Source: Candidatus Woesearchaeota archaeon
GTDB taxonomy: Archaea > Nanobdellota > Nanobdellia > SCGC-AAA011-G17 > GW2011-AR20
Direction of reading: 5' to 3'
Length of the DNA: 33,343 nt
NCBI GenBank assembly: GCA_016203115.1
Contig: JACQNJ010000027.1
Span: 1-33,343 of the forward strand
The notes beneath the pieces are model-generated. The model made no database searches, had not been told where the DNA came from, and was given only the letters and a program-made list of their open reading frames with translations. The translations under genes and the position numbers were made by a program. Shown here one piece after another: positions 3 to 31,951 of this stretch (positions are counted from its first letter, which is position 1; each line of letters starts with the position of its first letter).

Positions 3-3000
3 ACTGCTACTTCATGCACTTATGCAGACATAAATGTTCAAACAGGAGAGAGTTATACCTATATTGTAGGAGCTAGGTTTAGTGATCAACCAATAACTGC
101 GTCTATTAATCATGGTACGTTTACTACTATTGATATTCCTATTGAAGATCAGCCACCTATATGCCCTCCTAGAAATGCTGCTGCTATTTATAATGATTTA
201 GACTTTAATGGGGATAATGGAGTAGATGTTGTAATAGGAGGCACTGGTGCAACAGGGTTATCAGGACCAGATGGAGTGTTATTTGAACAACATATGGGAA
301 CTAACAGCCAAAGTGCAAATTGGGATGCTAAATATGATTTGAATGGAGATTGTCGGGTTGATCCTGATGATTTCTTCTTAATGGCAGATTTGATAGCACA
401 ACCCCCTGAGGCAACTGTGCTTCCGAAGGCCCCTGAAGCATCTTTAACTGTGGTTCAAATCTATCAAAGAGGTTTGCCTCTTCCTTTCGATGCACGAGAC
501 TCTAAGGATGATGATGGAAGTATTGTTTCTTATGTATGGGAATTTGGAGATGGAGAAAATCAAAATACCAGTGAGCCTTCTACTACTCATGTTTATGATA
601 CTCTTGGTACTTTTGAAGCCAGATTAACGGTTTATGATGATACACAGCTTTCTTCTTCTGTATCAAAAACCATTACTATAGTTTCTGGAGCAGGCCAAGG
701 TGGAGGTAGTCAGCCTCTAAATGTTGGAATTGATGATTATAATGCAAATCCTTTTGTGGGGCAGGAGGTAGTATTTACTGCTTCTTCTAAAGATCCAGTT
801 ACACAAGAAGTCTTGGCAGAGGTTAGCTATGAATGGGAGTTTGGAGATAATAGTGCAAACTTCACGGGCAACCCTGCAACACATACTTATACTACTCCAG
901 GAACTTATGAGTTTGAAGCTGTTGCAATAAAAGATAGTAGGAGAGGAAATGTAAAAAATACCATTACAGTACAATTAGCTGAAGTGGCTGCACAACTGAG
1001 TATTCCTTCTATTACTTCTTTAACTTATAATCCCTTGGATAATAAGATAATTATTAGGTGGAGAGATGAAGGGAATAGTGTTACTGTAACAGGAGGTAGG
1101 AGAGATTTATCTTATGTTATAAGCAGGGAATCAGGAGGAGCAAGAGATGATGAGTTTAAAACTGTTACTGCTACTGGTGTATGTACTGATCAAGAATGTG
1201 TTTATGAAGATAGTGATACAATTGGAACTAATATAAATTATATTTATAGGATTAAGGCAACTGAAGGGACACTACAAAGCCAATTTACAACTGGAGAACA
1301 AATTACTATTCCTGCTTCATGCACTTCTGTTGGTGGAGATGGATGTGTTGGATTCTTACAGGCAGGAGAATCCGAGGTTGCAATAGGAAATAGTTTCTGT
1401 GATGTTGTGAATAGCGGGAAATGTGTAAGGTGCAGTGATGAATTTAATTGGGATATGTCCTCTAATGTTTGCTTAGCAGTTAATCCAAAATCTAATGGGG
1501 AATCTTGTACATCTGGCAATGAATGTGCTACGGGTTTTTGTGGAGCAGATAGCAAATGCTCAGCGATAAGCCAAACTGAACTGGAAGTGTATGACTTTAA
1601 TGGAGATAATTGTGTAGATAAAATAGATTTTGAGGAGTTAGGAACTGCAGTAACTAACAACCCTACAGATATCTTGTCTTATGACTTAAATGAGGATGGA
1701 AATCTTGATGATAGTGATTTAACCTTATTATCAAGTAACATAGGGCTTGGGCAGTCTTGTCCAATCACAAAAGGAGATTTCAACAATGATAGATGCGTCA
1801 ATAGAGATGATAAGGTTGCATTACAAACTGAGATAGCAAAGGTTGAAGCTCAGAGAAACATTAGATTTGACTTAGATGGAAATGGAATGGTTAATGAAGA
1901 CGATTTAACATCATATAGAAGAGAGTTTAGAAATGGTGGAAATTGTGATCCTTTGCCTCTTTCTGTGGGAGATTTAGATGGTAATTATTGCATTGAAGAA
2001 GCAGATGTTGATCAGATGAGGGAATTGAGAAGAGCGACATCTGAAATAGCAATTGCTCAAAATGACTTGAATGGTGATGGGAGATTAGATACAGAAGATG
2101 AAAATGTTATAAGAAGATCATTAGGGCAAGGGGATAACTGTCCAGAGGTTGTAACTAGGTGGGGAGACTTTAATGGAGATGGTGTTGTAGATCTACAAGT
2201 GGTGGGATCTGATGTTACAGGCATGACTGGAACTGATGGCCAGTTATTTATAACACATATGGGAACAACAGAAGGAGATGCAAATTGGGATCCTATATAT
2301 GACTTGAATGATGATAAAATTGTAAACATTGGTGATTTCTTCATACTTAGCGATAATTTTGGAGTTATTGAAGAAAGAATACACTTTGATAGCAGGAGCG
2401 GATCTAGAGCTAATTTAGCAAATTCGAAAATAAGACTAGAGATTACTCCAACTGGAAGTGATATTATAAGCTCAGATATAACTGGGAAGTACAGGTCTTT
2501 CAACCTTATAGGGAGAGATGTAGGAGGAAGGAGTAGCTTGAACTTTGTAACTTTGGAAAGCACTACTGATTTAACCGGAAAATTGGCAAAACTTTCCATA
2601 TCTATAAGTTATGATGATGGAGATGTACAAAGACTTGGTATAAGCGAGTCTAGTTTGAAGATGTACTACTATAACCCTGCAACAAATGACTGGGAGCTAA
2701 TAGATACCACAGTGGATACTTCATCTAACTTAGTTACAGGAGAAACTGATCACTTTTCGGATTATGGTTTATTCGGAGATCTTACTCGTGTTGGGACTAC
2801 TGAAGATGGAAGTGAACCTCCTCCAGTAGATATAGGAGGGTCATCTCCTAGAGATGTAGATAGAAGAAGAACTTCAGGAAGCGGTTCATGTCCAAATGTT
2901 TTAATACAGAATGCAGGTGGGGATTGCAAACGTGCATGTCAGTCAAGTATACCTTTCTGGCAAAATAGCGGATATAATGTTGTAGATGAATGCAGTGTTG

Positions 3001-3554
3001 GGGAGCCGCAGCCTCCTGTTTCACCTTCGGCTGGAGGAGAGAATTATCCTACAATAGAAGATTATAAGAGAGCTGGAATTGATAGGAATGATTCAGATAC
3101 AGATAATGATGGCATATTGGATGATTTAGAAATTCAATTCTTTGCAGATTTGACTCAAGGATTTGATGATGATTATGATGGAGATGGGGTATCTAATGGT
3201 AAAGAGATTAATGTAGACCAAACTAATCCAACTGATCCTAGTGACTTCCTTACTGAAGAAAAGAGCGATAGAGGGATTATAACTGGTGTTATTGTTATTA
3301 TTATACTTGGAGCTGGAATTGGAACTTTGATATGGATGAGAAGACAAGGAAGATTTGGTGGAGGATCTGGTAAGACTTCCAAAATATTTAATACTACCGG
3401 GAAGATTCAATTAAATAATCAAGAAAAGAAGATGGTTATATACATAAAAGAAGCAAGAATAGCAGGCATGAATGATTCTGAGATTAGATCGAACTTACTT
3501 AAAGCAGGATGGAAATCAGAACAGATAGGCAATGCATTTTCTTCTCTTAAGTAA
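3..3554 (+). CDS. 5'-truncated cell-surface protein: dockerin/EF-hand-like repeats, two PKD domains, FN3-like region, Cys-rich region, TSP3-like Ca-binding repeat, TM helix, cytoplasmic helical tail
   Basis: The frame of the 276..3554 ORF stays open back to base 3 (TATSCTYADINVQTGE...YNDLDFNGDNGVDVV). Motifs: WEFGDG PKD signatures, repeated D-(F/L)-N-G-D-x-x-(V/L)-D loops, NDSDTDNDGILDDLE, hydrophobic GIITGVIVIIILGAGIGTLIW. Confidence 0.85.
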   Translation, partial: TATSCTYADINVQTGESYTYIVGARFSDQPITASINHGTFTTIDIPIEDQPPICPPRNAAAIYNDLDFNGDNGVDVVIGGTGATGLSGPDGVLFEQHMGTNSQSANWDAKYDLNGDCRVDPDDFFLMADLIAQPPEATVLPKAPEASLTVVQIYQRGLPLPFDARDSKDDDGSIVSYVWEFGDGENQNTSEPSTTHVYDTLGTFEARLTVYDDTQLSSSVSKTITIVSGAGQGGGSQPLNVGIDDYNANPFVGQEVVFTASSKDPVTQEVLAEVSYEWEFGDNSANFTGNPATHTYTTPGTYEFEAVAIKDSRRGNVKNTITVQLAEVAAQLSIPSITSLTYNPLDNKIIIRWRDEGNSVTVTGGRRDLSYVISRESGGARDDEFKTVTATGVCTDQECVYEDSDTIGTNINYIYRIKATEGTLQSQFTTGEQITIPASCTSVGGDGCVGFLQAGESEVAIGNSFCDVVNSGKCVRCSDEFNWDMSSNVCLAVNPKSNGESCTSGNECATGFCGADSKCSAISQTELEVYDFNGDNCVDKIDFEELGTAVTNNPTDILSYDLNEDGNLDDSDLTLLSSNIGLGQSCPITKGDFNNDRCVNRDDKVALQTEIAKVEAQRNIRFDLDGNGMVNEDDLTSYRREFRNGGNCDPLPLSVGDLDGNYCIEEADVDQMRELRRATSEIAIAQNDLNGDGRLDTEDENVIRRSLGQGDNCPEVVTRWGDFNGDGVVDLQVVGSDVTGMTGTDGQLFITHMGTTEGDANWDPIYDLNDDKIVNIGDFFILSDNFGVIEERIHFDSRSGSRANLANSKIRLEITPTGSDIISSDITGKYRSFNLIGRDVGGRSSLNFVTLESTTDLTGKLAKLSISISYDDGDVQRLGISESSLKMYYYNPATNDWELIDTTVDTSSNLVTGETDHFSDYGLFGDLTRVGTTEDGSEPPPVDIGGSSPRDVDRRRTSGSGSCPNVLIQNAGGDCKRACQSSIPFWQNSGYNVVDECSVGEPQPPVSPSAGGENYPTIEDYKRAGIDRNDSDTDNDGILDDLEIQFFADLTQGFDDDYDGDGVSNGKEINVDQTNPTDPSDFLTEEKSDRGIITGVIVIIILGAGIGTLIWMRRQGRFGGGSGKTSKIFNTTGKIQLNNQEKKMVIYIKEARIAGMNDSEIRSNLLKAGWKSEQIGNAFSSLK

Positions 3555-3597
3555 AATCATAAAAAGTTTTAAATAGAAGGGACCTCTATTTTTATTG

Positions 3598-4749
3598 ATG
3601 GAAAAGGGGCAAAATGCAGGGAACGTAGGGATGTTGGTTTTTCTTATAGCGATTTTTCTCGTTCTTTTTATTTTATTATTGCCTCCAGAGGACAGGCAAG
3701 AACTTTTAAAGACAAATAAAACTGTAGATTCTGGGGAAGGATCCAGCAACATTGTTTTGTTATCACAAACACCTGGATTATTGAATACTATAACTGCTGA
3801 TGAATCTTTGCATAAACTTGATTCTATTAACATTTTTTTAAGAGATGAACCTATTGTTTCTGATTTGGCAAGCAGGTTAACTGTTACAGAAGGAGTATTT
3901 AGCTCAGATGTGAGAAAACTTACTTTTAAGGTGGAGGATACTGATGACTTAGAAAATGCTTATCTTATTTTTTCTATTTATAAAAATGATGGGAATCTAA
4001 TTGTGACCTTGAATGAGGCAGAGGTATTTTCCGGGAAAACTGAGGGTCTGCAGACTGTTGTTTTGCCTAGGAATCTATTACAAGAGATTAATTCTTTAGA
4101 ATTTCAAGTTTCTAATCCTGGAGCAAATATATTTAAGAAAAATGAATATATTTTGGAGAATGTTAAAGTGAGGCAGAGTTTTGAAATTATAAATACTAAA
4201 GAAAAAAGAACTTTTGTTTTAAGCGCAGCTGAAAAAGGAAATGGCAAACTGAATTATTTCTTGTTTTGTAATAATGCTGCCAAATCAAGCAGGCTGAGAA
4301 TCTTTTTGAATAAAGAAGAAATTAGCGATGAGTTGATAACTTGCGGATCTGCTGACAAGGAAGTTGACATTAATGCTGCTGATCTTGGAGATGGAACTAA
4401 TGAACTTATTTTTGAGATTGATAAAGGAGACTATCTAATTAAAGATATTGAGCTGAAAGTCAAGACTTCTGATGGGGGAGCTGCCAAATATAAATTTGCC
4501 GTCAGCAGGTCTACTTTTGAGAAGATATTTGAAGACAACAGAAATGTTGAATTAAGAATGTTGTTTGATGATAATGAGAAAAAGAGATTTATTTATGAAA
4601 TAAATAACAATGAATTTACTGTTGATATTGAAGATGATGAATTTAAGATTGAGGATTTAGGGGAGTTTATTGAAGAAGGGAATAATATCTTTAAGATAAC
4701 TCCTCAAAGTGAATTTACAATTGATAAACTAGAACTAATTTTGAAATGA
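3598..4749 (+). CDS. Membrane-anchored extracellular protein of unknown function (single N-terminal TM, beta-rich ectodomain)
   Basis: ORF; ATG at 3598 preferred over TTG at 3595; VGMLVFLIAIFLVLFILLLP TM segment. Confidence 0.75.
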   Translation: MEKGQNAGNVGMLVFLIAIFLVLFILLLPPEDRQELLKTNKTVDSGEGSSNIVLLSQTPGLLNTITADESLHKLDSINIFLRDEPIVSDLASRLTVTEGVFSSDVRKLTFKVEDTDDLENAYLIFSIYKNDGNLIVTLNEAEVFSGKTEGLQTVVLPRNLLQEINSLEFQVSNPGANIFKKNEYILENVKVRQSFEIINTKEKRTFVLSAAEKGNGKLNYFLFCNNAAKSSRLRIFLNKEEISDELITCGSADKEVDINAADLGDGTNELIFEIDKGDYLIKDIELKVKTSDGGAAKYKFAVSRSTFEKIFEDNRNVELRMLFDDNEKKRFIYEINNNEFTVDIEDDEFKIEDLGEFIEEGNNIFKITPQSEFTIDKLELILK

Positions 4750-4753
4750 GAAG

Positions 4754-6142
4754 ATGGCTAAAAGGGAAGAAGAATATGATGATCCTTATTTAAAACCAAC
4801 TCCACGCAGGAGTCGAACTAGACGTGTTGCTGAATCTATTTATGAAGGACCACCTTCTTTAAATCCTTTTAGAACATTAGCTAATATTCTTAGAGGTCCT
4901 ATTGGTTGGGTAATACTTTTAGTAACCATCTTTGCTATTACTATTTTCTTGACACAATCTTACAGGCAGGGAGCTCTTGAGAGTGTGTGGGCTACAACTA
5001 CAGATACTCTTAGCAGGATTCCTGGATTTTCTTATTTGATTCCGAAAATAGAAGAAGGAAGTGAGCTTATTGTGAATCCTTCCCAGGCAATTATTAAAAC
5101 TTCTAATAGCCAATGGAAAGCTAGCGTTGATGCTACTGAAGTAGATAATGAGCTAGGATTGAACTTTGTTAGCAGGCCTTCTTCAACTTCAAATCTTTAC
5201 TTTACTAATGAGAAAATAATTATAGATGCGGATTTGGCAATAAAGATTCCTCAGGGAAAGGAAGATGAAACTTCTGTTGTTTCTTTTGGATGTTTGGGTG
5301 AGACTAATGGAGAAGTAAAAGGGGGCATTGTTGTACCTGCTAAAAAGGAGATTTTTAAAGGAGAAAAAACACCCATACATGTAAACTGTGAATTTCCTGA
5401 AAACACATTTACAGTTGATTCTAGTGTTATACAATCAGAAAATAAATTACAACCATTAAAAGTAAAATTTATTGTTGATTATGAGTTCAGTTCTTATGCT
5501 TTCTGGGAAGTTTATACTAAGGGGTATGAAATATTAAGAGAAGACAGACAGTTAGGAGATGACCCTTTTGATGACATTAAAAGCAGGTATATTGCAGATA
5601 GAACAACAGGTAAAGTTGCAAGCCAACCTAGTAAGGCTCCAATGAGAATTATTTTGGGAGGATTAGGGCAGCCTTACAGCGATAGAAGTGATAATGAGAA
5701 TGGAAATTTCCTAGGAGTTTCTTTTGAAGAATATGGAAAATATGCCCCTGCTAACAGAGGTGTAGTGAGGGAAATAAAAGATATAAGGTTAAGAATACCT
5801 AATAATTTTGTTATTAATACTGAACAAGGAGATTTTATTGAGGTTGATACACAAGAGGATAATAGGAGAGAATATCAAATAAGGTCTGAAAAATTAGCTG
5901 AATTAAATGCTAGATGTGAAAGGTTAGGTGTTAAAGAAAAACTTACTCAGGGATATTTAAGCGAAGAATGTTTTAAGGATTTAATATTAGAAGACTTTTC
6001 TTTAAGGACTTCATTTAATGTCGATTATTTGGAAAGTGATCAACTAACTATAGACGAAGTTACTGCAAAAACAGAGTATTTATATGAAACCTATGATACT
6101 TTAGTTTTAAATTTAAGAAGACCTCAAGGAGCTATTGCATGA
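4754..6142 (+). CDS. Single-TM surface protein of unknown function
   Basis: ORF starting 4 nt after the previous stop; basic N-terminus then GPIGWVILLVTIFAITIFL TM. Confidence 0.75.
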   Translation: MAKREEEYDDPYLKPTPRRSRTRRVAESIYEGPPSLNPFRTLANILRGPIGWVILLVTIFAITIFLTQSYRQGALESVWATTTDTLSRIPGFSYLIPKIEEGSELIVNPSQAIIKTSNSQWKASVDATEVDNELGLNFVSRPSSTSNLYFTNEKIIIDADLAIKIPQGKEDETSVVSFGCLGETNGEVKGGIVVPAKKEIFKGEKTPIHVNCEFPENTFTVDSSVIQSENKLQPLKVKFIVDYEFSSYAFWEVYTKGYEILREDRQLGDDPFDDIKSRYIADRTTGKVASQPSKAPMRIILGGLGQPYSDRSDNENGNFLGVSFEEYGKYAPANRGVVREIKDIRLRIPNNFVINTEQGDFIEVDTQEDNRREYQIRSEKLAELNARCERLGVKEKLTQGYLSEECFKDLILEDFSLRTSFNVDYLESDQLTIDEVTAKTEYLYETYDTLVLNLRRPQGAIA

Positions 6143-7050
6143 AAAGAATATTAATTGTTTTTTTGTTGATTTTTATAATTGGATGCGGACAACCAGGACA
6201 AGGCAGAGGAAAGATTACAGGTGAACCTGATGGTCTGCAGATTAGCTTCTTGCCTTTACAACCAGCATCTTCTTTGAGAGAAAATCAGGATGTTAATGTG
6301 GGTTTAGAGTTAGTTAATAATGGTGTTTGTGATATTTCTTCAGAGGTTTGCGTTACTGATACATTGAGCAGTGTTTGGGCGGGCGTTGAGGAGCAGTGCA
6401 CTTCTTTAGAGCTAAGAGGTATTGAGCAAGTAGGGGAAGGAGTTACTAAAGATTCTACTACAAAGCAATTTAGTTTTCCTGCTTATAGGGGGGTAGATAG
6501 AGATTTGTCTACTTCTATCATTGCAAAATCTAAGTATAATTGTGATATCACTGCTGGGCCTCAACTTTGTGTTAAACCTCTTGTTGGACAAAAAGAAAAG
6601 GAATGCCCTTCTTTTGAAAAGATTACAGGAGATAAGTTAAGAGCTACTATTGCACCTATTACTCTTGTAGGTGTTGACAAACAATTGGTTCCTGAGCAAG
6701 GAGGGATAAAATTAGTTGTAGCTATAACTTTGAAAAAAATGGGAGCAGGAGAGATTAAGGGGGAGCTTGATGAATCTACTATCAATAAAAAAGGCTCTTC
6801 TTCTGCTTTGAGATATGTTCCTGTAAGAGTTGAAGTAGATTATAGAGGGTATGGGAGCTTAGAATGCAGGGAGCTTGAAAATGGCATATTTTTATGGAGA
6901 AAGGATAAGGATCAAGAGATTCTTAACTGTGAAATATTCTTGGGAAGCATAGATTATGTGGAGAATCCTTTGGATATTAAGCTAGGTTATGAATATGAGG
7001 TTTCTCAGATGATGCCTATTCAGATTTTAGATGTGGATAAACAGAGATAA
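6139..7050 (+). CDS. Putative lipoprotein
   Basis: ATGA overlap with upstream gene; lipobox-like signal MKRILIVFLLIFIIGCG. Confidence 0.75.
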   Translation: MKRILIVFLLIFIIGCGQPGQGRGKITGEPDGLQISFLPLQPASSLRENQDVNVGLELVNNGVCDISSEVCVTDTLSSVWAGVEEQCTSLELRGIEQVGEGVTKDSTTKQFSFPAYRGVDRDLSTSIIAKSKYNCDITAGPQLCVKPLVGQKEKECPSFEKITGDKLRATIAPITLVGVDKQLVPEQGGIKLVVAITLKKMGAGEIKGELDESTINKKGSSSALRYVPVRVEVDYRGYGSLECRELENGIFLWRKDKDQEILNCEIFLGSIDYVENPLDIKLGYEYEVSQMMPIQILDVDKQR

Positions 7051-7090
7051 TTTTATAAATGAGTAAATCTCCTTAATTATAGGTGTTACT

Positions 7091-8014
7091 ATGAAAAAGT
7101 CTTATATTTTTATTATTTTTTTGGTTTCTTTATTGATAATTGCTGGATGCAAAAAAGAAGGTACAGGAAAGACAGGGACTTTTTTTGGGGGTGTTGATGG
7201 GGTTTCTATAGAATTTGAGAAACTATCTCCTCCAAGCAAGTTTGAGCAGGATGATTCGGTTTCTATCCAAACTATTTTAAAAAATAAAGGAGAATTTGAC
7301 TTGCAAAGCGGGAAAGCAAAAGCAAAGATTTTTGGCATTAATTTGAATACTTTCGGTTTAACTGACCAGTATAAAGGATCTGCAGGACCATTAAGAGGCA
7401 GAGGGGAATTTTCTGATCAGGGAGGAGAGCAGGTTCTTGATTTTGGCAATGCTAGGTATAATCAACCAATCATTAATTCTCAAGATTTTACTATAAGAGC
7501 TAAGGTTTGCTATCCCTATCAAACTAAAGGGCTAGTCAATGTTTGCATTACACCTTTGATTGCAAAGGAAAGTGGAAAAGAAGTCTGCTCTGTTGAAGAG
7601 CAAAAAGTTAAAAAAGGAGATATTTCAAGTGGGCCTGTGCAGATTACTTCTGTTACTGAGGAAATAAGAGGAAGTGATCAGGTAAGGTTTAATATTGAGA
7701 TTCAAAATCAAGGCAAGGGAGATGTTTTTATGCCTGAGATTGAATGCGAGAAGCTTGAAGAAGCAACTGCCAGAGTTGCTAATAAAGATAAAGTTGAAGT
7801 ACACATCTTGAATCCTGCAGATGTTCAGTGTGATTTTAGAACTTCTGATTTGACTAATAGGGGTATAGTTGAATTAGTTGGTGGAAAACAGGTTGTGAGC
7901 TGCTTTACCACTGCAAGGGACAGCTATGAAGATAAGCTGAATATCCGATTAAATTATGTCTACTTAGATGAGACTAGTGTTCCTGTTACTATTTTTGAGA
8001 GCACAACTAAATAG
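7091..8014 (+). CDS. Putative lipoprotein, paralogous to 6139..7050
   Basis: Signal MKKSYIFIIFLVSLLIIAGC; similar architecture and alignable segments to the preceding gene. Confidence 0.75.
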   Translation: MKKSYIFIIFLVSLLIIAGCKKEGTGKTGTFFGGVDGVSIEFEKLSPPSKFEQDDSVSIQTILKNKGEFDLQSGKAKAKIFGINLNTFGLTDQYKGSAGPLRGRGEFSDQGGEQVLDFGNARYNQPIINSQDFTIRAKVCYPYQTKGLVNVCITPLIAKESGKEVCSVEEQKVKKGDISSGPVQITSVTEEIRGSDQVRFNIEIQNQGKGDVFMPEIECEKLEEATARVANKDKVEVHILNPADVQCDFRTSDLTNRGIVELVGGKQVVSCFTTARDSYEDKLNIRLNYVYLDETSVPVTIFESTTK

Positions 8015-20230: not shown

Positions 20231-20686
20231 ATGGCAAGATTATACAGCGGGAGAAAAGGAAAAAGTGGAAGCAAGAAACCTATAAAAAAAGTTAAGCAGG
20301 GATGGATTCGATATAGTGATAAAGAAGTTGAGCAGTTAGTTATTAAACTAACCAAACAGGGATATAGCCAGAGCAAGTTAGGCGTTGCCTTGAGAGACAC
20401 ATATGGGGTGCCAGATGTTAAAGTTTTAACTGGAAAATCAGTTAGTACTATTATTAAAGAGAATAAATTAAATTCTGAGATTCCTGAAGATTTGCTTAAT
20501 TTAATAAAAAGAGAAACTATGATTCATAAGCATCTTGGGGCGAATAAAAAAGATAAGACTGCTTTAAGAGGATTACAGTTAACTGAGAGCAAAATCAAAA
20601 GACTTGTTAAATACTATAAGACTACAGGCCAATTATCCAGTGCTTGGAATTATAACCGGGAGCAAGCTAAATTATTAACAAGTTAA
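20231..20686 (+). CDS. rps15: Ribosomal protein S15 (S13e family)
   Basis: MARLYSGRKGKSGSKKP...GQLSSAWNYN. Confidence 0.95.
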   Translation: MARLYSGRKGKSGSKKPIKKVKQGWIRYSDKEVEQLVIKLTKQGYSQSKLGVALRDTYGVPDVKVLTGKSVSTIIKENKLNSEIPEDLLNLIKRETMIHKHLGANKKDKTALRGLQLTESKIKRLVKYYKTTGQLSSAWNYNREQAKLLTS

Positions 20687-20690
20687 TTTT

Positions 20691-20846
20691 ATGAATAATC
20701 CTTGCTATTTTAGGTAATCTCCCTGGTTTGTTCGATTTATCTTTTTTTGGAAAAGGGTCACTTTTGAGGTCTTACAGAATGATATTATTGATGCATTTAT
20801 TGAAAAACTTAAGAATTCTTTAGGAAATTTGACTATTGAGGCATAA
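20691..20846 (+). pseudogene. Possible decayed gene remnant between rps15 and rps3ae
   Basis: One frame reads MNNPCYFR*SPWFVRFIFFWKRVTFEVLQNDIIDAFIEKLKNSLGNLTIEA*; 3' half looks coding but has an in-frame TAA and no obvious start. Confidence 0.3.
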
Positions 20847-20883
20847 TAGAAAGTTTTATTAAGATTTTTTATGAGGGTATACT

Positions 20884-21453
20884 ATGGCAGTTCAGGCTTT
20901 AAGCAAGAAAGGTAGGAAAAAATGGTATACTATTACGGCTAGTTCTCATTTTAATGAAAGGCCTCTAGGAGAGACTTTATCTTATGAGCCAGAGCAGCTA
21001 ACGGGAAGAGTTATCAGCACTAATTTATCAAATTTAACTGGAAACTTAAAGGCACAGAATATTAAAGTCAGTTTTAGAATTAAGGAAATTCAGGATAATC
21101 ATGTTGTTACAGAGTTTATCGGCTATGAAATGTCCCCTTCATACCTTAAGAGAGTTGTGAGAACTGGAAGAGACAGAGTAGACCTTTCTTTTTCTGGGAA
21201 AACTAAAGATGGGGTGAAAGTGATTGTCAAGCCCTTTTTATTGACAAAATTTAATACTCATAGATCTGTAAAAACAGTCTTAAAAGAAAAATGCAGAGCT
21301 TTTTTTGAAAAATACTTCAGTGAAACGGAATATCACACTTTTGTTTCACAGCTTATTTCTAATAAAATTAATCAGGATATGAGGGAAGCATTAAGTAAAT
21401 TATATCCTTTAGGCAATGTAGAGATTAGAGCTATGAAGAGAGCTATAAAATAG
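20884..21453 (+). CDS. rps3ae: Ribosomal protein S3Ae (S1e)
   Basis: KKGRKKWYTITASSHFNERPLGET...FIGYEMSPSYLKRVVRTGRDRVD. Confidence 0.94.
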   Translation: MAVQALSKKGRKKWYTITASSHFNERPLGETLSYEPEQLTGRVISTNLSNLTGNLKAQNIKVSFRIKEIQDNHVVTEFIGYEMSPSYLKRVVRTGRDRVDLSFSGKTKDGVKVIVKPFLLTKFNTHRSVKTVLKEKCRAFFEKYFSETEYHTFVSQLISNKINQDMREALSKLYPLGNVEIRAMKRAIK

Positions 21454-22940: not shown

Positions 22941-23063
22941 ATGAAAAAATACCTTCTTCTTATTGAGGATGAAAAACTTTGGGAGAAATTTAAGTCTGTT
23001 ATTAAAAAAGACATTAATACAGAGATAATGGAGCTCATAAAGAAGAAGGTTAAAGGTGACTAG
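22941..23063 (+). CDS. 40-aa ribbon-helix-helix-like DNA-binding protein
   Basis: Hand translation, absent from ORF track: MKKYLLLIEDEKLWEKFKSVIKKDINTEIMELIKKKVKGD*; strand-helix-helix pattern of RHH proteins. Confidence 0.65.
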   Translation: MKKYLLLIEDEKLWEKFKSVIKKDINTEIMELIKKKVKGD

Positions 23064-23064
23064 A

Positions 23065-24972
23065 ATGCTTGAAAAAAGAGGCCAAGTTACAGTGTACATC
23101 ATTTTAGGAATTGTAGTAATAGCATTATTCCTTATAACAACTTATATTAGAGATAGTAACATTTTAGATAGTATCAATAAAAGAGTTGAAATTAATGCAC
23201 AGACGCTTCTTGCCCATGCTAGAGTTGAGGAATGCATAACTAATATTGCTAAGGAAAGTGTTAATATTCTGGGAGCACAAGGTGGGAAGATTGAACTTGA
23301 AGAATCAGCATCTTTGAACCCTCTTGTCCCTTTTGGAAACAGTCTGGATATTTTTAACAATGATGCTTTGCGTGTGCCTTACTGGTTTTATAGGACCCCT
23401 AATGGGATTAATACTCAGGAAATTCCAAGCATTAGTGATATGGAATTGGAGCTAGGAAACTATATCAAAAATAATATTATCTTTTGCTATGAGGATTTAA
23501 GAGACTTAGGACAGTATACTGTGGATTATGATGGAGATAGCGAGGTTGAAGTTGACATTCAGGATACTAAAATTTTGGTTTCTATTAGAGGTCCATTAAC
23601 TGTATCCATTGATGATGTTTCCTCTAATTTAGACTCATTTTCTATTGTTTTAAATGCTCCTTTAGGCAGGCTTTATGCTGATGCTAATGACATACTAGAC
23701 AAAGAAAATAAAGAGTTGTTCTTTGAAGAGAGAACTATTGACATGATTGGGTTATATGATGATATTCCCGGAACTGACACTGGATTCAGTTGCGATGAGA
23801 AAACTTGGAAAAAAAGCGAGGTTGAGAGAAGCTTTAGAAGCATTGTCCAGACTAATGTAGGGAACGTTAGAGCAGAGGGAGATTCGAAATACTATAGCTT
23901 AGATGTTCCTACTAATGCACAAGTTAATTTCAGATACTCTACGGATTGGCCTTTTGTGATGAAGGTTATACCTGATGAGGGGGAAGTTATGAAGGGAGAT
24001 TCTGTTATTGAAAGAAAAGGACTTTTGAAATATTTGTCAAGGTTTCTCTGCTTAAACAGCTATCACTTCGTTTATGATGTCCAATATCCCGTTCTTGTTA
24101 CTTTAAGCGATAATGGATATACTTTCCAATATGCTTTTATGGTAGTAATTGACAATAACCAGCCTAGAATCAACAGTGTTGATTTTGATACCATTGAGGA
24201 AGATACTTTTGATGTCTGTAAAGTGAGAAACCATCTTTTGGATGTTAGTGTATTTGCAGATGGCAGAAACCTTGATGATGCTGATGTAAGTTTCCAGTGC
24301 TTCAATTCAATTTGTTCAATAGGGAAGACTGTTAATGGAAACCTTAATGAAAAATTCCCACAATGCTTGAATGGGAAGATTATTGCTGAGAAAGAAGGGT
24401 ATGATAAATCTGAGCTGATTATTGACACTAATCAAGCTGGGAGTGCTTCTTTAGAATTAGAGCCAATTTATTCTAAGAACTTGAATGTCAAGCTTATTGA
24501 TAAAAAAACAGGAACTACTAAAGATGTTGCAAATGAAGTAATAATTATTGAATTTACTGAAGAAAATGGATATAGCACTTCTTTATCTTATCCTGAAGCT
24601 AAGACTGTTGAATTGAGGAGAGGAAAATATACAGTTAATGTTATTGTTTCAAAACCTGGAGAAGTTGCTGTTCCTTCACAAGAAATAGAGAGATGCACTA
24701 AAATTCCTGGATCTGGACTATTCGGAGACTTCCTTAGCAAAGAAAGCTGTGTTAAGGAAAATTTTGAAGCAACTAACCTTGATCAACAGGTTATTGGGGG
24801 GAATAATTTTAATTTTGGTATTACAAGAGAAAATTTAGTTCAATCTGAGGGAATCATAATTTATGCTTTAGTTGAAGATAAAGAGCTTACTCAAGAAGGT
24901 ATTATTTCAACTTATGAGTCTGTAGAGACAAATAATTTAAATTCAAATTTTAAATTACCGGAGTTCACATGA
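23065..24972 (+). CDS. Secreted/membrane-anchored protein with class-III-like signal segment
   Basis: MLEKRGQVTVYIILGIVVIALFLITTYI N-terminus (ATG 23065 preferred over GTG 23056); large ectodomain. Confidence 0.8.
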   Translation: MLEKRGQVTVYIILGIVVIALFLITTYIRDSNILDSINKRVEINAQTLLAHARVEECITNIAKESVNILGAQGGKIELEESASLNPLVPFGNSLDIFNNDALRVPYWFYRTPNGINTQEIPSISDMELELGNYIKNNIIFCYEDLRDLGQYTVDYDGDSEVEVDIQDTKILVSIRGPLTVSIDDVSSNLDSFSIVLNAPLGRLYADANDILDKENKELFFEERTIDMIGLYDDIPGTDTGFSCDEKTWKKSEVERSFRSIVQTNVGNVRAEGDSKYYSLDVPTNAQVNFRYSTDWPFVMKVIPDEGEVMKGDSVIERKGLLKYLSRFLCLNSYHFVYDVQYPVLVTLSDNGYTFQYAFMVVIDNNQPRINSVDFDTIEEDTFDVCKVRNHLLDVSVFADGRNLDDADVSFQCFNSICSIGKTVNGNLNEKFPQCLNGKIIAEKEGYDKSELIIDTNQAGSASLELEPIYSKNLNVKLIDKKTGTTKDVANEVIIIEFTEENGYSTSLSYPEAKTVELRRGKYTVNVIVSKPGEVAVPSQEIERCTKIPGSGLFGDFLSKESCVKENFEATNLDQQVIGGNNFNFGITRENLVQSEGIIIYALVEDKELTQEGIISTYESVETNNLNSNFKLPEFT

Positions 24973-27900
24973 GAAATAGGATATTTGCATTATTCTGCAT
25001 TTTTTTAGTATTGGGCACTAGTTTTGCTGCTGCTCAATCCATTAGAGATAGTGATATTCCTATTTTTACGAACACAATAGAAGAGACTGGGGAATCGATA
25101 CTTGTCAATGCTGGGAAATTAGAGCCTAGTATTGTTCCCACTAATATTTTAGAAGAGCAAGATGTTCCTGTATATGTGTTCTTGAAAGGAGCTACTTTGG
25201 GAAGCTTAGCTTTTGGGGAAGATGCTCCTGAAGCTAATCCTTTTTATGGAATCCCTGAAATTGAAAGAGTAAGCATTTCTGGAATTGAAAGCACTAATAA
25301 TCTTGTTTCTAATGTTGTGCATATTAAGCCTAAAGACAGGAGATATATTGTTGATGAAAGTGGGAGATTTTTTGATATGGGCTACTTGATTTTAAAATTG
25401 AGAAAAATCAAGGATGAAAAGGAATTGCCTCAGTTTAATGATACTGCCTTGGCAAGAGTTAAAGATGATAATCTAGAATTATTAAAAACTGGTGGACCTA
25501 CTATCGATGCAAAGATCGATTTAGATATTAGATTTAATACTGATACTTCTTTTGGGGTATTTGGCGCTCAAGATTTGAGATTGGCTGAGCAGACAAATGA
25601 AAAAGAATGGCTGGATAGTGCTAATAGGGTTTCTTTCTGGGGAAGGAATGGGTATATTAGAGCTGATAGAATTAGAGATGATGGTGTTACTTTAAGTGTT
25701 TATGATGGGAGAAATAGGAGAATTCATGGAGTTACTCTCGCTAAAAATGGAGATGAAAGTTCACCTATCAGATTAAAGGAATTTGGACCTGTTGAGAATA
25801 CTTTATTTAGAATTAGGCTAAATAGTGTTGTTATTCCTAGAGATAGTGCTGAGCTTGAGATTAGTGGAGATATTTATAATTTAGCTGAAGGACAGAGATT
25901 GTATCCTGGGAGCAATTGGAAAGTTGAAAAAATCAGAAATAATTTGGAAGTTAAAAGTGAAGAAGGAAAAGTTATTTCCCTATATGATGAAGTAACTTTA
26001 ATTGGAAAAGATGGACAGAGAAAGAGCTTGAAGATTGTTTATTTTGGCGAAGTGCAGAAACTTGAAGTTACAGAAAAGACCAAAGTTGATAAGACTACTG
26101 AAGGTTATATTAAATTTAAGGATATACTTGATAATGATCCGGAATTTATTGAAAAGGTTGAAGAGATTTCTCTTAAATTAAATATTGATCCAAACCATTT
26201 AATGGCTGTAATGGCTCTTGAAAGTGGGTTTGATCCGACAGTATATAATCCTCGCCCAGATTCTAAGGCAATTGGTTTAATTCAGTTTATACCTACAACA
26301 GCTGATAGTTTGGGTACTTCCACTGATAAATTAAGAGAAATGAGTAGAATACAACAATTAGAATTTGTTGAGAAACACTTTAATCCCTATAAGGGGAAAA
26401 TTAGGAAAGGCAGTTTGGAAGACGTTTATATGGTTATAATAGACCCTTCTGTATCGGTCGGCAAGGAACCAGAATCAATTATGTTTAGTAGAGAGTATCG
26501 CCCTGTAAAATATAATGCAAATGCTGCGGCTTTAGACAAAGATGGAGATGGAGTAATCTATATAAAAGAGGCAACTGAGTCTGTTAAGAGCGTCTATGGT
26601 TTAGGAGCACCTCTTGCAGTTACTGCACAACCAACTGTTCCTGGAGAATTTGCACTTTACTTAGAAAATGAAGATATCTGTGTTAATGTTGGTTTTGAGG
26701 ATAGTGAAGCATTAGATAAAACAAGCAACCAGATTTATTGCAAATCTATTCAGGAAATTGAAGAGTCTATAAATAAAGGATTAACTGGAGAAACATTAAA
26801 TGAAGCTTATTATAGACTAGGTGAAGCTAATGAAGCATTAGGAGTTAACAATCTGTACCATAAAAGGCAGGCTATTCTTGCATATGAGAATATTGCAGAA
26901 GGAACATTATATGATTTAGCGCAGGATAAAAAAGAAGGTTTAGAAGAGCAAATTGCTGGGAATATGGATATCAGCGGAGCAAATATTTTCTTAGAAGATG
27001 AAAATGTTAAGGTAATTTTCAGATCTATTAAAGTTGTAAGAGAAAAAGACAAGGCTAGTGCTACTTTAAGCTTGGATAATAACCAAGGAACTTATACTAC
27101 TGGAGATGTTATTACTGGAGGGATTGATGAGCAAAATAATAAGTTTGAATGGAAAATTGAGTCTATAACTACAGATAAAATAGTTCTGAAACAATACTTT
27201 GAGGATTCTAAGATTTCTGGAAGAAGAGAGACTCTCAGGATTAATGATGTTATTGCTTTGCAAACAGGTACTGGAAAAACTGTGACTGTACAAATTTTAG
27301 ACATTGACACAAAAAGGCAAGCATACATTACTATTTTACCTGGAAGCGGAAGGGCAATAAGCAGAAGCACTGTTGATGTCAAGATTCCAATTGAGAGAAG
27401 AGCGATCCAGTTCAGCACTGAGCAAATAGACTGGCAGATAAATAAGACAAGAGAAGTTATTAAGAAATTGGATTCTATAATTGACAAATTGGATACTACT
27501 GTAAAAATTTGGAAATCTACCTGTTTAGGAGTATTTGCATTTCTCAGCTTAAAGAACTTGGTAACTTCTAGTTCTGAAGGAGAAGCTAGAGCTTTAATCA
27601 TGAGGGGAATTGATGGCAAAAGCGGATTTGGTGCTTATTGCAATGAAAACAGCGGATTAAATAAAATTTATTCTAGTTATGATGAATGTATTTTCAAAAA
27701 CCAAGATTATATTGAGAAAAGAATTAATGAGGAAAAACAAAATATAATTAATGCTGATAATTATGTCAAAACTGGATATGCTCAAGAATATGGGCAATTT
27801 AAACTTAATGAAGATGATGCTTCTTTAATTTCAAAACAAGATGCAAGAGAGCTTAAGCTATTAGAGTCACAAATAAGAGTTTCTGAGGAAAATTTAGAAA

Positions 27901-30900
27901 GTGCTAGTAATGTGAATCAGGCAATTGAAACAAGGAGTTTAGACTCATTAAAAGAGCAGCTTAGGGTTAAACGAGAGGTTATAGAAAAAACCAAGGCAAA
28001 CTTTAATGAGGCTAAAAACTATGCTGAAACTGTTTCTAAAAATTCAGATATTACTGATCCGGAGGCTATTAAGAAGGTTAGAGATGAGGCATTTAGTGTC
28101 AAACTTAATGAATTATCCAGGTCAGTTGGAACTGGAATAAAATCTGAGGAATTTGCAAATTTACAACCTTTGACATTTGTTGATGGCAGGACTTTTGATA
28201 AAAATGGAGCTCTTTTGAATGCTAAAGAAGTCAAAGGATCAGAATATGTGGATTATTTACAAAGACAAATTGATGCAGAAAATGACCCAACCAAAAAGGC
28301 TAAATTAATTGCTTTGAAAGAAAAAATCGAAAAAAATCCTGAAAAAATAGTTGTTACTGATGATGGGAAGACTATTTACCAAGCAGAAGGTAATTATTAC
28401 TATTCTGAGACTGAGGATTATTTAGGATTGAGAATAAGAAGGAATTATGCAAGAGCTAATGTTGCTGAATATTATGAAAATGGAAGGCCATTTTGCGTGC
28501 CAATTGGTGAAGGCAATTATGTAAGAGTATTAGAATATTATGCTGATGGAACTGCTAAGACTGTTGATGAAAGGAATGTAGGATCAGATGGAGAATTGTG
28601 CACAAGTGATGATGTTATAATTAATTCTGATAGCTTGGTAAAATTAAACCCCCAAAAAGAGCAGGAATTAAAAAGAGCCGCTGCAAGAGCTGGAACTTGT
28701 GCTCCTGGCATGTATAAACCTGGTAATTTTATTTGCAGCTATGCTAGAGCTAAGGCTGCTGAGGTTATTACTAAGCTTCAATGTACAGATGTTATGAGTA
28801 TTAGTGACTGCAAAATATTGTTCAATACTTGTGATCCTGTAATGTGCCCGACTTCAAGATTTAATTTAGGTGGGAAATGGAATGTTGGAAGTGTTCCCGA
28901 GACAGGAATTGCAGGATCTTTATTTTTAGGATTGAAGACTGAAAATAATCCGTTATCCAGAGTATGCTATACAGGCGTATTATCTGGATTAGAGGGAGTT
29001 AGAAGCGTTTTCCAGGGATATGAGCAGTGTTTGCAAACTGCGAAAGTTGAAGGAACTACTGTTGGGATATGTGATAAAGTCAGAAGTGTATTTATTTGCG
29101 AGAATGTTTGGAGAGAAGCTGTTGCGATAACTGGAAGTGTTGGCGGGTTTAGTGCATTTAGTGGGAATTTATTTGGAAATGCTAATGGAGGAGGGGAATA
29201 TGCTCCGAATGAGTTCAGCAAGAGACTAAAACAGACTAGTGATTCTGCTAAGTTCTTTGCCAATGATTATGCCACTTCAAGCTTGGCTGCATATAACGCG
29301 AGATCTTTGGGTGAAGCAGGAAGCCAGATTTGCAGGAACATTTATGCTGGGAAAGCTCCTGGAATAGGAAAATTAATTGATCAGATAACAACACCTGAGA
29401 GTCCACCACAATTTACTGCATTCTTTGATGAGTATCCTTGGAGCAGTGATGCAGGAGATACAAGATTAAATGTCGGCGCAGGATTGCTTAGCAATGTGCA
29501 GGAGCAATCAAGATACAGTGTGTTCTACCACATTTATGCGGGAAGAGCTGCAGATGTTAGGTATAGTGTTTATTTGAAGGATAGATTGGGAAATATTGCT
29601 TATGTTACTGAGAGAGCTGGAGGCAGAGGCAGAGGGTTTATACCTAGGGAAGAATTTGCAAGCAAGAATATTGACTTTATTGGGAGAAGCGGATTTACTG
29701 AGATTTGCGTTGAGATAAATGGAAGGGAAATCTGTGGATTTGGAAGAGCTAGTACTGATTTTGGGGTTAATTATATCAATGACAAAGTTGTTACCAATGA
29801 ACTTCAAAGAGAGATTAAGACTAAAGAGCAGTGTGTACCTGAAAATGAGGCTGGGCCTACACTTGCAGGAATTGTAACTCCTGAAAATATTAATACAGGA
29901 GATGTTACTGGAGGAATTGTGAGAGTTTGCAGCAATAAAAATCCTGGGGAAGGAGGAAATGAAGCAAGATGGCAAGTTGTTGGAGAATGTGGCAAGGATA
30001 AAGAAGATATTGAACTTGGAAGTTGCTGGATTGATACAATGACTATAAGAATTAATGACAAGGCTTTGAAAGAGCAGACTGTTCAAAATATTATTAGCAA
30101 ATATGATGTCAAAGAAGGAGAGCTTGTTTTAGGATTGAGTAAAGAGCTGTTCATGAATTTGTATAATGAGCATATTTCTGCTTTAAGTAACTTTTTACTT
30201 TTTGAATCGGGCAAACCTTTAAGTGAAACAGAAAAAAATATTTTGCTTCAAACTATAGGCATTGAAGATGATGATGAAAGTTTGAGGTTTATTGCTGCTC
30301 AATCTATAGATTACGGGGCAATTGCTCAATTAAGAGTTGGAGAGATTTATTTGGTTTTAGCTAATGATAAGAGAACTAAAGAAAGTATTGCTGGGCAAGC
30401 TGGACAACAAACTTCTCAGGTTGCATCTCCCTCTGCCGCTACTACTGTTTCTGTTACTAGTAGTGCTACTGTATCTCTTTTCAATCTTTGCAGTGATTCT
30501 AACGGAGTTTATTACGCAGAAAATGATGAAGAAAGTTGTGCCTTTGGAGATACTAAGGTTAGATCTGCCCTATCTCAATTGGAAGTGAAAAAATTTAGAG
30601 ATAATAATCTTGTAGATAATGCTGCTTGTGGTGATAATACATTTTTGACTATTACCACTCCTTGGAATAACAGAGATGTTTGCCATCGAAGAACGAAAGG
30701 CGTAAATGGATGTTACTATGATAGCTCTCCTGTTATGATTAATGGCTGTTTTTTATGTGAATCTAAAACCTCTTGTTCTGTATATAAAGATAAAGAGGAA
30801 TGTGAAAAATGGGATCCTTGTGTTTTAGACTGTAAATGGAGCAATAACAAGTGTATATCTAGGGATTCTTTTAATCAGAATCAGCAACTAAATACTCAAC

Positions 30901-31277
30901 AAGGAGTCAATCAAGATTTTGCACAGGAGAAAACTAAATTGGAAACTTATAACTTAGACTACTATGATAGGAGTAATGGAATCTTGTATATCAATATTGA
31001 AAATTTAGGCGGGGGATATTACATAAGTAATGAAAATGCTGGAGGAACTTATCCAATATTTAAAAGCTATGATTCTCTGGAACTGGCGCCTGGGGCGCTT
31101 CCTGGTGAAGACATAGAAGTGGGATATGTTAGCGGTGATGGAAGTGTTTATATTACAAATGGGGAACAAAATGAGCAATTACTGGAAAAAATAAAGATAA
31201 AACAAGGGGTTATACCTAATCTTTTTGTCAATAAAGGAACTGAATCATTTTATTTTGATGGAAATCTCCTAGTATGA
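24969..31277 (+). CDS. Giant (2102 aa) secreted multidomain protein with SLT/lytic-transglycosylase-like domain, coiled-coil region and Cys-rich modules
   Basis: Signal MRNRIFALFCIFLVLGTSFAAAQ; LNIDPNHLMAVMALESGFDPTVYNP...AIGLIQFIPTTADSLGTSTDKLREMSRIQQLEFVEKHFNPYKGK; ATGA overlap with upstream gene. Confidence 0.85.
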   Translation: MRNRIFALFCIFLVLGTSFAAAQSIRDSDIPIFTNTIEETGESILVNAGKLEPSIVPTNILEEQDVPVYVFLKGATLGSLAFGEDAPEANPFYGIPEIERVSISGIESTNNLVSNVVHIKPKDRRYIVDESGRFFDMGYLILKLRKIKDEKELPQFNDTALARVKDDNLELLKTGGPTIDAKIDLDIRFNTDTSFGVFGAQDLRLAEQTNEKEWLDSANRVSFWGRNGYIRADRIRDDGVTLSVYDGRNRRIHGVTLAKNGDESSPIRLKEFGPVENTLFRIRLNSVVIPRDSAELEISGDIYNLAEGQRLYPGSNWKVEKIRNNLEVKSEEGKVISLYDEVTLIGKDGQRKSLKIVYFGEVQKLEVTEKTKVDKTTEGYIKFKDILDNDPEFIEKVEEISLKLNIDPNHLMAVMALESGFDPTVYNPRPDSKAIGLIQFIPTTADSLGTSTDKLREMSRIQQLEFVEKHFNPYKGKIRKGSLEDVYMVIIDPSVSVGKEPESIMFSREYRPVKYNANAAALDKDGDGVIYIKEATESVKSVYGLGAPLAVTAQPTVPGEFALYLENEDICVNVGFEDSEALDKTSNQIYCKSIQEIEESINKGLTGETLNEAYYRLGEANEALGVNNLYHKRQAILAYENIAEGTLYDLAQDKKEGLEEQIAGNMDISGANIFLEDENVKVIFRSIKVVREKDKASATLSLDNNQGTYTTGDVITGGIDEQNNKFEWKIESITTDKIVLKQYFEDSKISGRRETLRINDVIALQTGTGKTVTVQILDIDTKRQAYITILPGSGRAISRSTVDVKIPIERRAIQFSTEQIDWQINKTREVIKKLDSIIDKLDTTVKIWKSTCLGVFAFLSLKNLVTSSSEGEARALIMRGIDGKSGFGAYCNENSGLNKIYSSYDECIFKNQDYIEKRINEEKQNIINADNYVKTGYAQEYGQFKLNEDDASLISKQDARELKLLESQIRVSEENLESASNVNQAIETRSLDSLKEQLRVKREVIEKTKANFNEAKNYAETVSKNSDITDPEAIKKVRDEAFSVKLNELSRSVGTGIKSEEFANLQPLTFVDGRTFDKNGALLNAKEVKGSEYVDYLQRQIDAENDPTKKAKLIALKEKIEKNPEKIVVTDDGKTIYQAEGNYYYSETEDYLGLRIRRNYARANVAEYYENGRPFCVPIGEGNYVRVLEYYADGTAKTVDERNVGSDGELCTSDDVIINSDSLVKLNPQKEQELKRAAARAGTCAPGMYKPGNFICSYARAKAAEVITKLQCTDVMSISDCKILFNTCDPVMCPTSRFNLGGKWNVGSVPETGIAGSLFLGLKTENNPLSRVCYTGVLSGLEGVRSVFQGYEQCLQTAKVEGTTVGICDKVRSVFICENVWREAVAITGSVGGFSAFSGNLFGNANGGGEYAPNEFSKRLKQTSDSAKFFANDYATSSLAAYNARSLGEAGSQICRNIYAGKAPGIGKLIDQITTPESPPQFTAFFDEYPWSSDAGDTRLNVGAGLLSNVQEQSRYSVFYHIYAGRAADVRYSVYLKDRLGNIAYVTERAGGRGRGFIPREEFASKNIDFIGRSGFTEICVEINGREICGFGRASTDFGVNYINDKVVTNELQREIKTKEQCVPENEAGPTLAGIVTPENINTGDVTGGIVRVCSNKNPGEGGNEARWQVVGECGKDKEDIELGSCWIDTMTIRINDKALKEQTVQNIISKYDVKEGELVLGLSKELFMNLYNEHISALSNFLLFESGKPLSETEKNILLQTIGIEDDDESLRFIAAQSIDYGAIAQLRVGEIYLVLANDKRTKESIAGQAGQQTSQVASPSAATTVSVTSSATVSLFNLCSDSNGVYYAENDEESCAFGDTKVRSALSQLEVKKFRDNNLVDNAACGDNTFLTITTPWNNRDVCHRRTKGVNGCYYDSSPVMINGCFLCESKTSCSVYKDKEECEKWDPCVLDCKWSNNKCISRDSFNQNQQLNTQQGVNQDFAQEKTKLETYNLDYYDRSNGILYINIENLGGGYYISNENAGGTYPIFKSYDSLELAPGALPGEDIEVGYVSGDGSVYITNGEQNEQLLEKIKIKQGVIPNLFVNKGTESFYFDGNLLV

Positions 31278-31951
31278 AAAAAACATCCAGAAAAAACATT
31301 TTTAGGACTTACTTATTAGATATTGGATTTGTTTTGTTTTTAGGATTCTTTTTGATCTTTTCTAGAAATATTGTAGGGAACTATATTTCACAAATGAATG
31401 TTTATTTGCCACAGATTAATTCTATTGATCCAAATTTAGACCCTGTTGGAGCCGAGTTTTTGATTAAAGATGCTAATTCAATTTCTAATAACATGTTTAT
31501 TTTTTTATTAGTAATACCTGTTGTTGTGTTTTTAATTTACTTTATATTTCAGGGTTTGAGTTTTTATTATCTGAAAAAAGAAAAAAAATATTTGATTTAT
31601 TTTTTTGTAACTAGCTTGTTTTCTTATATCTTATTTGCGCTTTTATTAACTAAATCTTCTTTTAATATACCTTTAATCTTGATATTTTTGTTAATCGCTT
31701 ATTTAACATTTTTATCTTATTTAACTATCAATGGAGAAGATTATTTGAAGTTATTGAAGCAGTCTTATGTTTTGTTTTTTGTATTTTTGGGTTATTTACT
31801 ACTATGGATAATCTCTTTCTCTTTATTTTTAATGGCTATACTGAATTATACAATAAGTAATATTAGCTATGTTCTTTTTGCTGGACTTGGATTGCTTGTA
31901 TTATTAGGAATAAGCTACTGCAAAATCTTGATCGTAGAAAAATTTTCTTAA
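31274..31951 (+). CDS. Polytopic membrane protein, operon partner of the giant protein
   Basis: ATGA overlap with giant ORF; multiple strongly hydrophobic segments. Confidence 0.75.
   Translation: MKKTSRKNIFRTYLLDIGFVLFLGFFLIFSRNIVGNYISQMNVYLPQINSIDPNLDPVGAEFLIKDANSISNNMFIFLLVIPVVVFLIYFIFQGLSFYYLKKEKKYLIYFFVTSLFSYILFALLLTKSSFNIPLILIFLLIAYLTFLSYLTINGEDYLKLLKQSYVLFFVFLGYLLLWIISFSLFLMAILNYTISNISYVLFAGLGLLVLLGISYCKILIVEKFS

Follow-up and report, generated by a model that had tools for sequence, protein, structure and literature searches.

A probable phage-type lytic transglycosylase domain in an exchangeable slot of a conserved DPANN surface protein

From sequence comparison and modeling, we consider it probable that positions 26080-26630 of the window, i.e., the whole 33,343-nucleotide stretch of DNA analyzed here, encode a functional phage-type lytic transglycosylase (LT) domain, which occupies an exchangeable catalytic slot within a DPANN surface protein that is itself conserved. 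The domain is part of a giant secreted protein of a Candidatus Woesearchaeota archaeon, and in relatives of this protein other wall hydrolases are found in its place. The locus comprises the following features:

23056 to 24972, plus strand: operon gene 1, encoding a 638-aa protein with an archaeal class-III (pilin-type) signal, KRGQVTVYIILGIVV; from the start region as read, ATG 23065 is the more likely start
24969 to 31277, plus strand: giant secreted protein of 2102 aa, from the open reading frame
24969 to 25037, plus strand: predicted signal peptide, residues 1-23, MRNRIFALFCIFLVLGTSFAAAQ, from a hydropathy scan, with a putative exact cleavage site
25074 to 25958, plus strand: conserved, beta-rich N block, residues 36-330, from the order-wide alignment and the predicted model
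26079 to 26603, plus strand: phage-tail-type SLT/LT domain, residues 371-545, in the variable slot
26220 to 26222, plus strand: codon GAA of the catalytic Glu418
26274 to 26288, plus strand: GLIQF motif of the SLT family, residues 436-440, from the alignment
26535 to 26570, plus strand: EF-hand-like DKDGDGVIYIKE loop, residues 523-534, kept in phage relatives
28326 to 30128, plus strand: conserved Cys-rich C block, residues 1120-1720, with a CDPVMCPxSR signature and 15 invariant Cys, from the alignment of relatives
31274 to 31951, plus strand: operon gene 3, encoding a 225-aa multi-pass membrane protein, at the same position in many relatives

A preliminary description had proposed an SLT/lysozyme-like domain at residues of about 370-555 of the 2102-aa protein, with Glu418 as candidate catalytic residue, and Pfam, PHROG, PDB sequence and fold searches bore this out. 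Against Pfam SLT (PF01464), the domain scored 35.2 bits (cut-off 21.3, E 1e-8), and 39.5 bits in a whole-genome profile search. Phage tail PHROG families scored much better than generic SLT, with E 5e-33 for phrog_4928 and E 1e-28 for the baseplate hub family phrog_196. The best match in the PDB sequence search was 9udh, a 'lytic transglycosidase' (E 5e-26), also matched by a four-row family profile with E 2e-44. Structure prediction, as had been suggested, yielded the lysozyme-like fold. The AlphaFold2 model of residues 1-590 reached pLDDT 92-98 across the LT domain, and its top Foldseek match in the PDB was the bacteriophage protein 9udh (E 5e-11, TM 0.77 by target length, 43% identity), followed by phiKZ gp144 (3bkh) and then by Slt, MltF and MltE with E of at least 0.02. 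Sequence and model together confirm residues of about 371-545 as a predicted lysozyme-fold LT domain of phage-tail type with an intact Glu418.

In the alignment of the phage-type family, Glu occupies the E418 position in 89 of 89 relatives, although part of the viral rows had been retrieved by a pattern containing the Glu, unlike the other pattern used; a survey of homologs thus revealed no family-wide loss of this residue. All motifs quoted in the preliminary description were present, the actual text of one being LEDVYMVIIDPSVSVGKEPE, and its EF-hand-like motif turned out to belong to the phage domain itself, with D523 of the DxDxDG loop (D523-E534) kept in 89/89 rows. The phage-tail LT subfamily (phrog_196/4928, 9udh) matches the domain over its full length, including the C-terminal part with Y-x-x-N and DxDxDG. 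Compared with a same-genus relative, the LT domain shows a dN of 0.34 and a dS of 1.4 (dN/dS about 0.24), the N block 0.105 and 0.65, and the C block 0.092 and 1.08. Although under purifying selection, the LT domain changes more rapidly than either the N or the C block. With Pfam, we found no SH3, LysM, PG_binding or other known cell-wall-binding domain in the giant from this contig.

The giant had been described as secreted, and its N-terminus indeed reads as a Sec-type signal. In a 19-residue hydropathy scan this was the sole hydrophobic segment of the 2102-aa protein, with no C-terminal transmembrane segment. In Woesearchaeota and Pacearchaeota, a conserved operon places the giant between the class-III-signal protein and the membrane protein. 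Homologs of gene 1 (about 640 aa, class-III signal) occurred in 45 of 54 fetched relative loci, mostly immediately before the giant and overlapping it by 4 bases; gene 1 itself gave no Pfam, PHROG or NCBIfam match. Counterparts of gene 3 (225-270 aa, multi-pass) follow directly downstream in many loci, and gene 3 matched DUF6320 weakly, below the cut-off. A little upstream of the operon (20231-21453, plus strand) lie two small ORFs of 151 and 189 aa, with homologs within giant loci of relatives (13 and 20 loci, respectively, including our own contig). They resemble archaeal ribosomal proteins, and this may simply be conserved synteny. The window also encodes another large secreted protein (3-3554, plus strand), which combines PKD-like repeats, numerous EF-hand/dockerin-like DxNxDG repeats and, at its C-terminus, a transmembrane segment, and after which come further secreted or lipoprotein-like ORFs (3595-8014).

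With the whole giant as query, 54 of 61 related genomes gave matches, via the N block, the middle part and the Cys-rich C block. A pattern scan for the C block returned 261 relatives; all 80 among the matches listed were archaeal records, mostly named Woesearchaeota, Pacearchaeota and Nanoarchaeota. Throughout the phylum, the C block matched in 135 of 279 genomes, many of them weakly. It could not be assigned to a known fold: AlphaFold2 pLDDT was only 66, and Foldseek gave no PDB match below 1e-3, the best being an ApaG-like beta sandwich at 1.4e-3. The conserved core of the giant is the Cys-rich block, and the catalytic part varies. The slot, i.e., the segment between N block and middle part, has entirely different content among relatives.

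Phage-type LT domains occupy the slot in our giant and in those of genomes G001, G009 and G012, and canonical SLT domains lie in or near it in G003, G005, G007, G002, G016, G056 and G023. In other loci (L094, L095, L102-L108, L111, L112, L178, L188, L190, L193, L194), SLT is found at the C-terminus, after the C block. The catalytic Glu was kept in 49 of 49 canonical SLT matches in giants. For giants that do not contain SLT, Pfam tallies listed M23, Amidase_2, NlpC/P60, VanY, DUF1615, DUF2272 and 3D, as well as the non-wall domains GDSL, metallophosphoesterase and trypsin; we take DUF1615 to belong to the lysozyme clan and DUF2272 to an NlpC/P60-like clan. M23 sits in the slot of L152 and, by motif, of L147, and follows SLT in L094 and L104 (E 4e-21 and 1.6e-21). 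Further cases are Amidase_2 plus GDSL (L163), DUF2272 (L202), DUF1615 (L195), VanY with a weak SLT (L109), NlpC/P60 (L089), and SLT in the slot with a DPBB_1 'lytic transglycolase' in the tail just below the cut-off (L099). The two closest full-length relatives (L064 and L065, one from the same genus and one from the family) feature a C-terminal Amidase_3 (E 1.8e-42 and 2.2e-42). Our giant ends before that part, and a search of its genome found no Amidase_3 anywhere; an entire hydrolase was apparently gained or lost recently. Where Amidase_3 and M23 replace or join SLT, their catalytic motifs look intact.

For L170, and tentatively for L085 (PWELIAAIHYRESSLN, like L170), we assume a lysozyme-like motif, and the slot motif RHNNPLNI of L070 presumably has a lysozyme-like look as well, again tentatively; the slot contents of L070 and L085 gave no Pfam, PHROG or PDB match. 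No hydrolase was recognized in about one half of the giants, several of these being intact, e.g., L075, L077 and L080. In L073 (G050:C11, 5540-6938), the slot SLT is interrupted by a TAA that splits the gene into two ORFs, which would reflect either decay or an assembly error. Peptidoglycan enzymes are not the only occupants of the slot, since GDSL, metallophosphoesterase, trypsin and Exo_endo_phos domains also occur there. Metallophosphoesterase, Exo_endo_phos, DUF218 and FGE-sulfatase-like domains were seen in wall-hydrolase positions of L310, L311, L313, L314, L069, L130 and L133; their substrates could be teichoic acids or further polymers of the cell surface. Ape esterases remove O-acetyl groups that block LTs; by analogy, the GDSL esterases could do the same.

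In a distant group (f30), the gene order is class-III-signal gene, giant, a pilin-like gene of about 190 aa, and a variable secreted gene, which places the hydrolase gene two positions downstream of the giant. A Pfam scan of these variable genes, from which L312, L315, L316 and L322 were left out, found GDSL plus phage LT in L301 (motif and profile), SLT in L320, L321 and L324, DUF2272 in L308 and, with Phage_lysozyme2, in L314, Amidase_2 in L309 and L319, M23 in L317, whose next gene has SLT, and a weak Glucosaminidase match in L318; L306, L310, L311 and L313 had only GDSL, metallophosphoesterase or Exo_endo_phos. One group thus provides the hydrolase in cis, and f30 provides it in trans. A 789-aa fragment in L302 (G285:C66, 2-2371) contains a phage-type LT preceded by an HELTHVVQQR stretch, which we take to be typical of eCIS-associated proteins; the contig is short and may represent bacterial DNA contaminating the bin.

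Mapping the hydrolase labels on a tree of 90 C blocks required at least 28 changes, including swaps between sisters, a rough figure given that many 'none' labels stem from incomplete contigs or from domains absent from Pfam. Sisters L193 (SLT) and L202 (DUF2272) pair with a support of 99, and a small clade with a support of 100 unites L109 (SLT and VanY), L089 (NlpC), L170 (lysozyme-like) and L177 (none). The eight-row clade of our own giant (support 95) contains phage LT, canonical SLT and an unrecognized third type. As to the number of phage-to-archaea transfers, the four phage-type copies in giants group together (98 SH-aLRT) within the viral diversity, and a single origin for all archaeal phage-type copies is compatible with the data (p-AU 0.565).

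The owner genome (G000) is a MAG of 763 kb and 89% completeness, whose nearest relatives are NCBI-named Candidatus Woesearchaeota MAGs. That an archaeal owner would be devoid of murein had been assumed from the start, and in profile searches we found no Mur ligase (PF08245) and no transpeptidase (PF00905) domain in its own genome or family, an absence that is not absolute for an 89%-complete MAG. Among the 61 related genomes, PF08245 occurred in four and PF00905 in one. Since the organism and nearly all relatives searched are devoid of murein-synthesis domains, the likely target would be the bacterial peptidoglycan of another cell. Contamination was considered and rejected: the contig carries SRP54, FtsY-like, TruD, aIF2-alpha-like and archaeal S8e/L44e-like genes (by eye), and the giant is found order-wide. 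The same genome encodes a second, separate SLT protein of 279 aa on contig C33 (28719-29108; L001 1168-2007, minus strand). It is a canonical SLT (Pfam E 2.6e-24) with the LT Glu present, only a few genes from an aIF2-beta-like gene.

We propose that the giant is exported by Sec and probably kept at the surface alongside the other two products of its operon, the class-III-signal protein and the small membrane protein. Upon contact with a bacterium, the LT domain would cut MurNAc-GlcNAc bonds of its peptidoglycan, with E418 as general acid/base, and a locally opened wall could allow attachment, nutrient access or lysis. Other wall hydrolases would repeatedly have taken the place of the catalytic domain, whether within the slot, as a C-terminal tail or as the product of a nearby downstream gene, and we suggest that this is because the walls of prey or hosts differ. 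The fold, the intact Glu, purifying selection, the secretion signal, the conserved operon, the swap to unrelated wall hydrolases and the absence of murein-synthesis domains support this scheme, from which we infer enzymatic activity. The bacterial wall of another cell is suggested as target because the owner has no murein synthesis and the enzymes jointly cut glycan strands, amide bond and peptide stems. Anchoring and a contact-dependent use are likewise suggested by the operon and the conserved Cys-rich core. Action on bacterial walls, one of two roles initially envisaged, became more plausible with the range of unrelated peptidoglycan hydrolases that relatives have in this position. Going further, we lean slightly toward viewing the conserved surface operon of Woesearchaeota, Pacearchaeota and the distant sister group as an anti-bacterial contact apparatus, its catalytic tip switched between ten or more wall-hydrolase families that are unrelated or only distantly related, fused or encoded two genes downstream, and often accompanied by GDSL or phosphoesterase helpers.

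The other role initially envisaged, a repurposed glycan-binding fold, would mean that the LT domain had lost its enzymatic function. Its faster evolution compared with the core would fit, but the retained Glu418 and GLIQF/EF-like residues, purifying selection, the unbroken Glu conservation in canonical SLTs and the intact look of the Amidase_3 and M23 motifs make this very unlikely. Specialized LTs of the VirB1 type serve bacterial secretion systems, and the domain might by analogy cut the archaeon's own wall polymer or aid its own pilus. This we regard as highly improbable. A VirB1-like function presupposes an owner that makes a murein wall, whereas PF08245 and PF00905 are missing from its genome and family and rare in the order, and the amidases and D,D-carboxypeptidase-like domains of relatives need peptide stems that these archaea seem unable to make.

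The domain might also be a digestive enzyme that releases amino sugars and amino acids from the peptidoglycan of dead bacteria, with no contact to living ones. Tiny genomes and the scavenging lifestyles proposed for the group agree with this, as does the array of hydrolases, and peptidoglycan of dead bacteria has been proposed as an amino-acid source for Pacearchaeota (PMC11537232). However, most of the domains reside on one conserved giant in an operon with a pilin-type-signal and a membrane protein rather than on small free enzymes, and fast replacement at a fixed position is more arms-race-like than expected for general digestion; we consider scavenging unlikely. Release to the medium as a competitive weapon or anti-predator defense, not for attachment, would be in agreement with a Sec signal that is not complemented by a C-terminal transmembrane segment, and haloarchaeal peptidoglycan hydrolases do kill bacteria (PMC12352652). 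Yet the size of 2000-3000 aa, the Cys-rich core and the operon with membrane components suggest a surface structure, and a released weapon thus seems improbable to us.

If the contact apparatus is real, many uncultured DPANN archaea would be predators or episymbionts of bacteria, with a tip adapted to the partner's wall. A conserved operon in which the variable portion is time and again a peptidoglycan hydrolase points to bacteria as targets and suggests that uncultured archaea attack or attach to them; the hydrolase type could then predict the type of wall attacked. To our knowledge, the hosts of Woesearchaeota and Pacearchaeota are unknown. According to a 2024 study, all cultivated DPANN need an archaeal host (PMC11291902).

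The preliminary description had called the fusion to a large surface protein unusual; it is, on the contrary, recurrent in a Woesearchaeota/Pacearchaeota family already in the literature (PMC8204110, PMC9723730). Castelle et al. 2021 (PMC8204110) reported fam00969, large extracellular proteins of Pacearchaeota and Woesearchaeota that reach 3000 aa and contain a murein-like LT domain, and suggested that they bind or degrade bacterial walls. Such LTs were reported for other MAGs as well (PMC10936187; Vigneron et al. 2022, PMC9723730). Lineages, size range, LT domain and suggested role are the same as for our giant, and the AR20 genome (CP010426, locus L127), whose LT Castelle et al. mention, encodes a giant of the present family. 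Where they discuss the family, those papers treat the LT as its content, whereas here it is one of about ten wall hydrolases that alternate on a conserved core, either at two positions of the giant or in trans, and the operon around them is conserved; our own copy is of phage-tail type. In the open-access literature we came across no account of the slot, of the use of two positions, of the trans arrangement, of the operon, or of this copy being of phage-tail type. Replacement of the LT by other wall hydrolases in some members explains the patchy LT annotation in the family.

The phage-tail/endolysin LT family (phrog_196, phrog_4928, 9udh; e.g., Pantoea phage AAM22 gp44, Acinetobacter phage HD01 LT) is about 36-47% identical to our domain over most of its length and has the same Glu, GLIQF, Y-x-x-N and DxDxDG loop. 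These phage LTs sit in the virion hub or an endolysin, whereas ours is fused into a 2102-aa archaeal secreted protein. The GH23 enzymes phiKZ gp144 and MltE/MltC/Slt are lysozyme-fold LTs too, but with only 12-18% identity in the fold matches, and are phage or bacterial enzymes that act on the host's or their own wall. The modular archaeal hydrolases of Strock et al. 2025 (PMC12352652) are likewise proposed or shown to act on bacterial walls, with killing of bacteria demonstrated, but the search behind them made a known cell-wall-binding domain a prerequisite. Our giant has no such domain, and the present work provides a list of wall-lytic domains in archaea that would escape searches of this kind.
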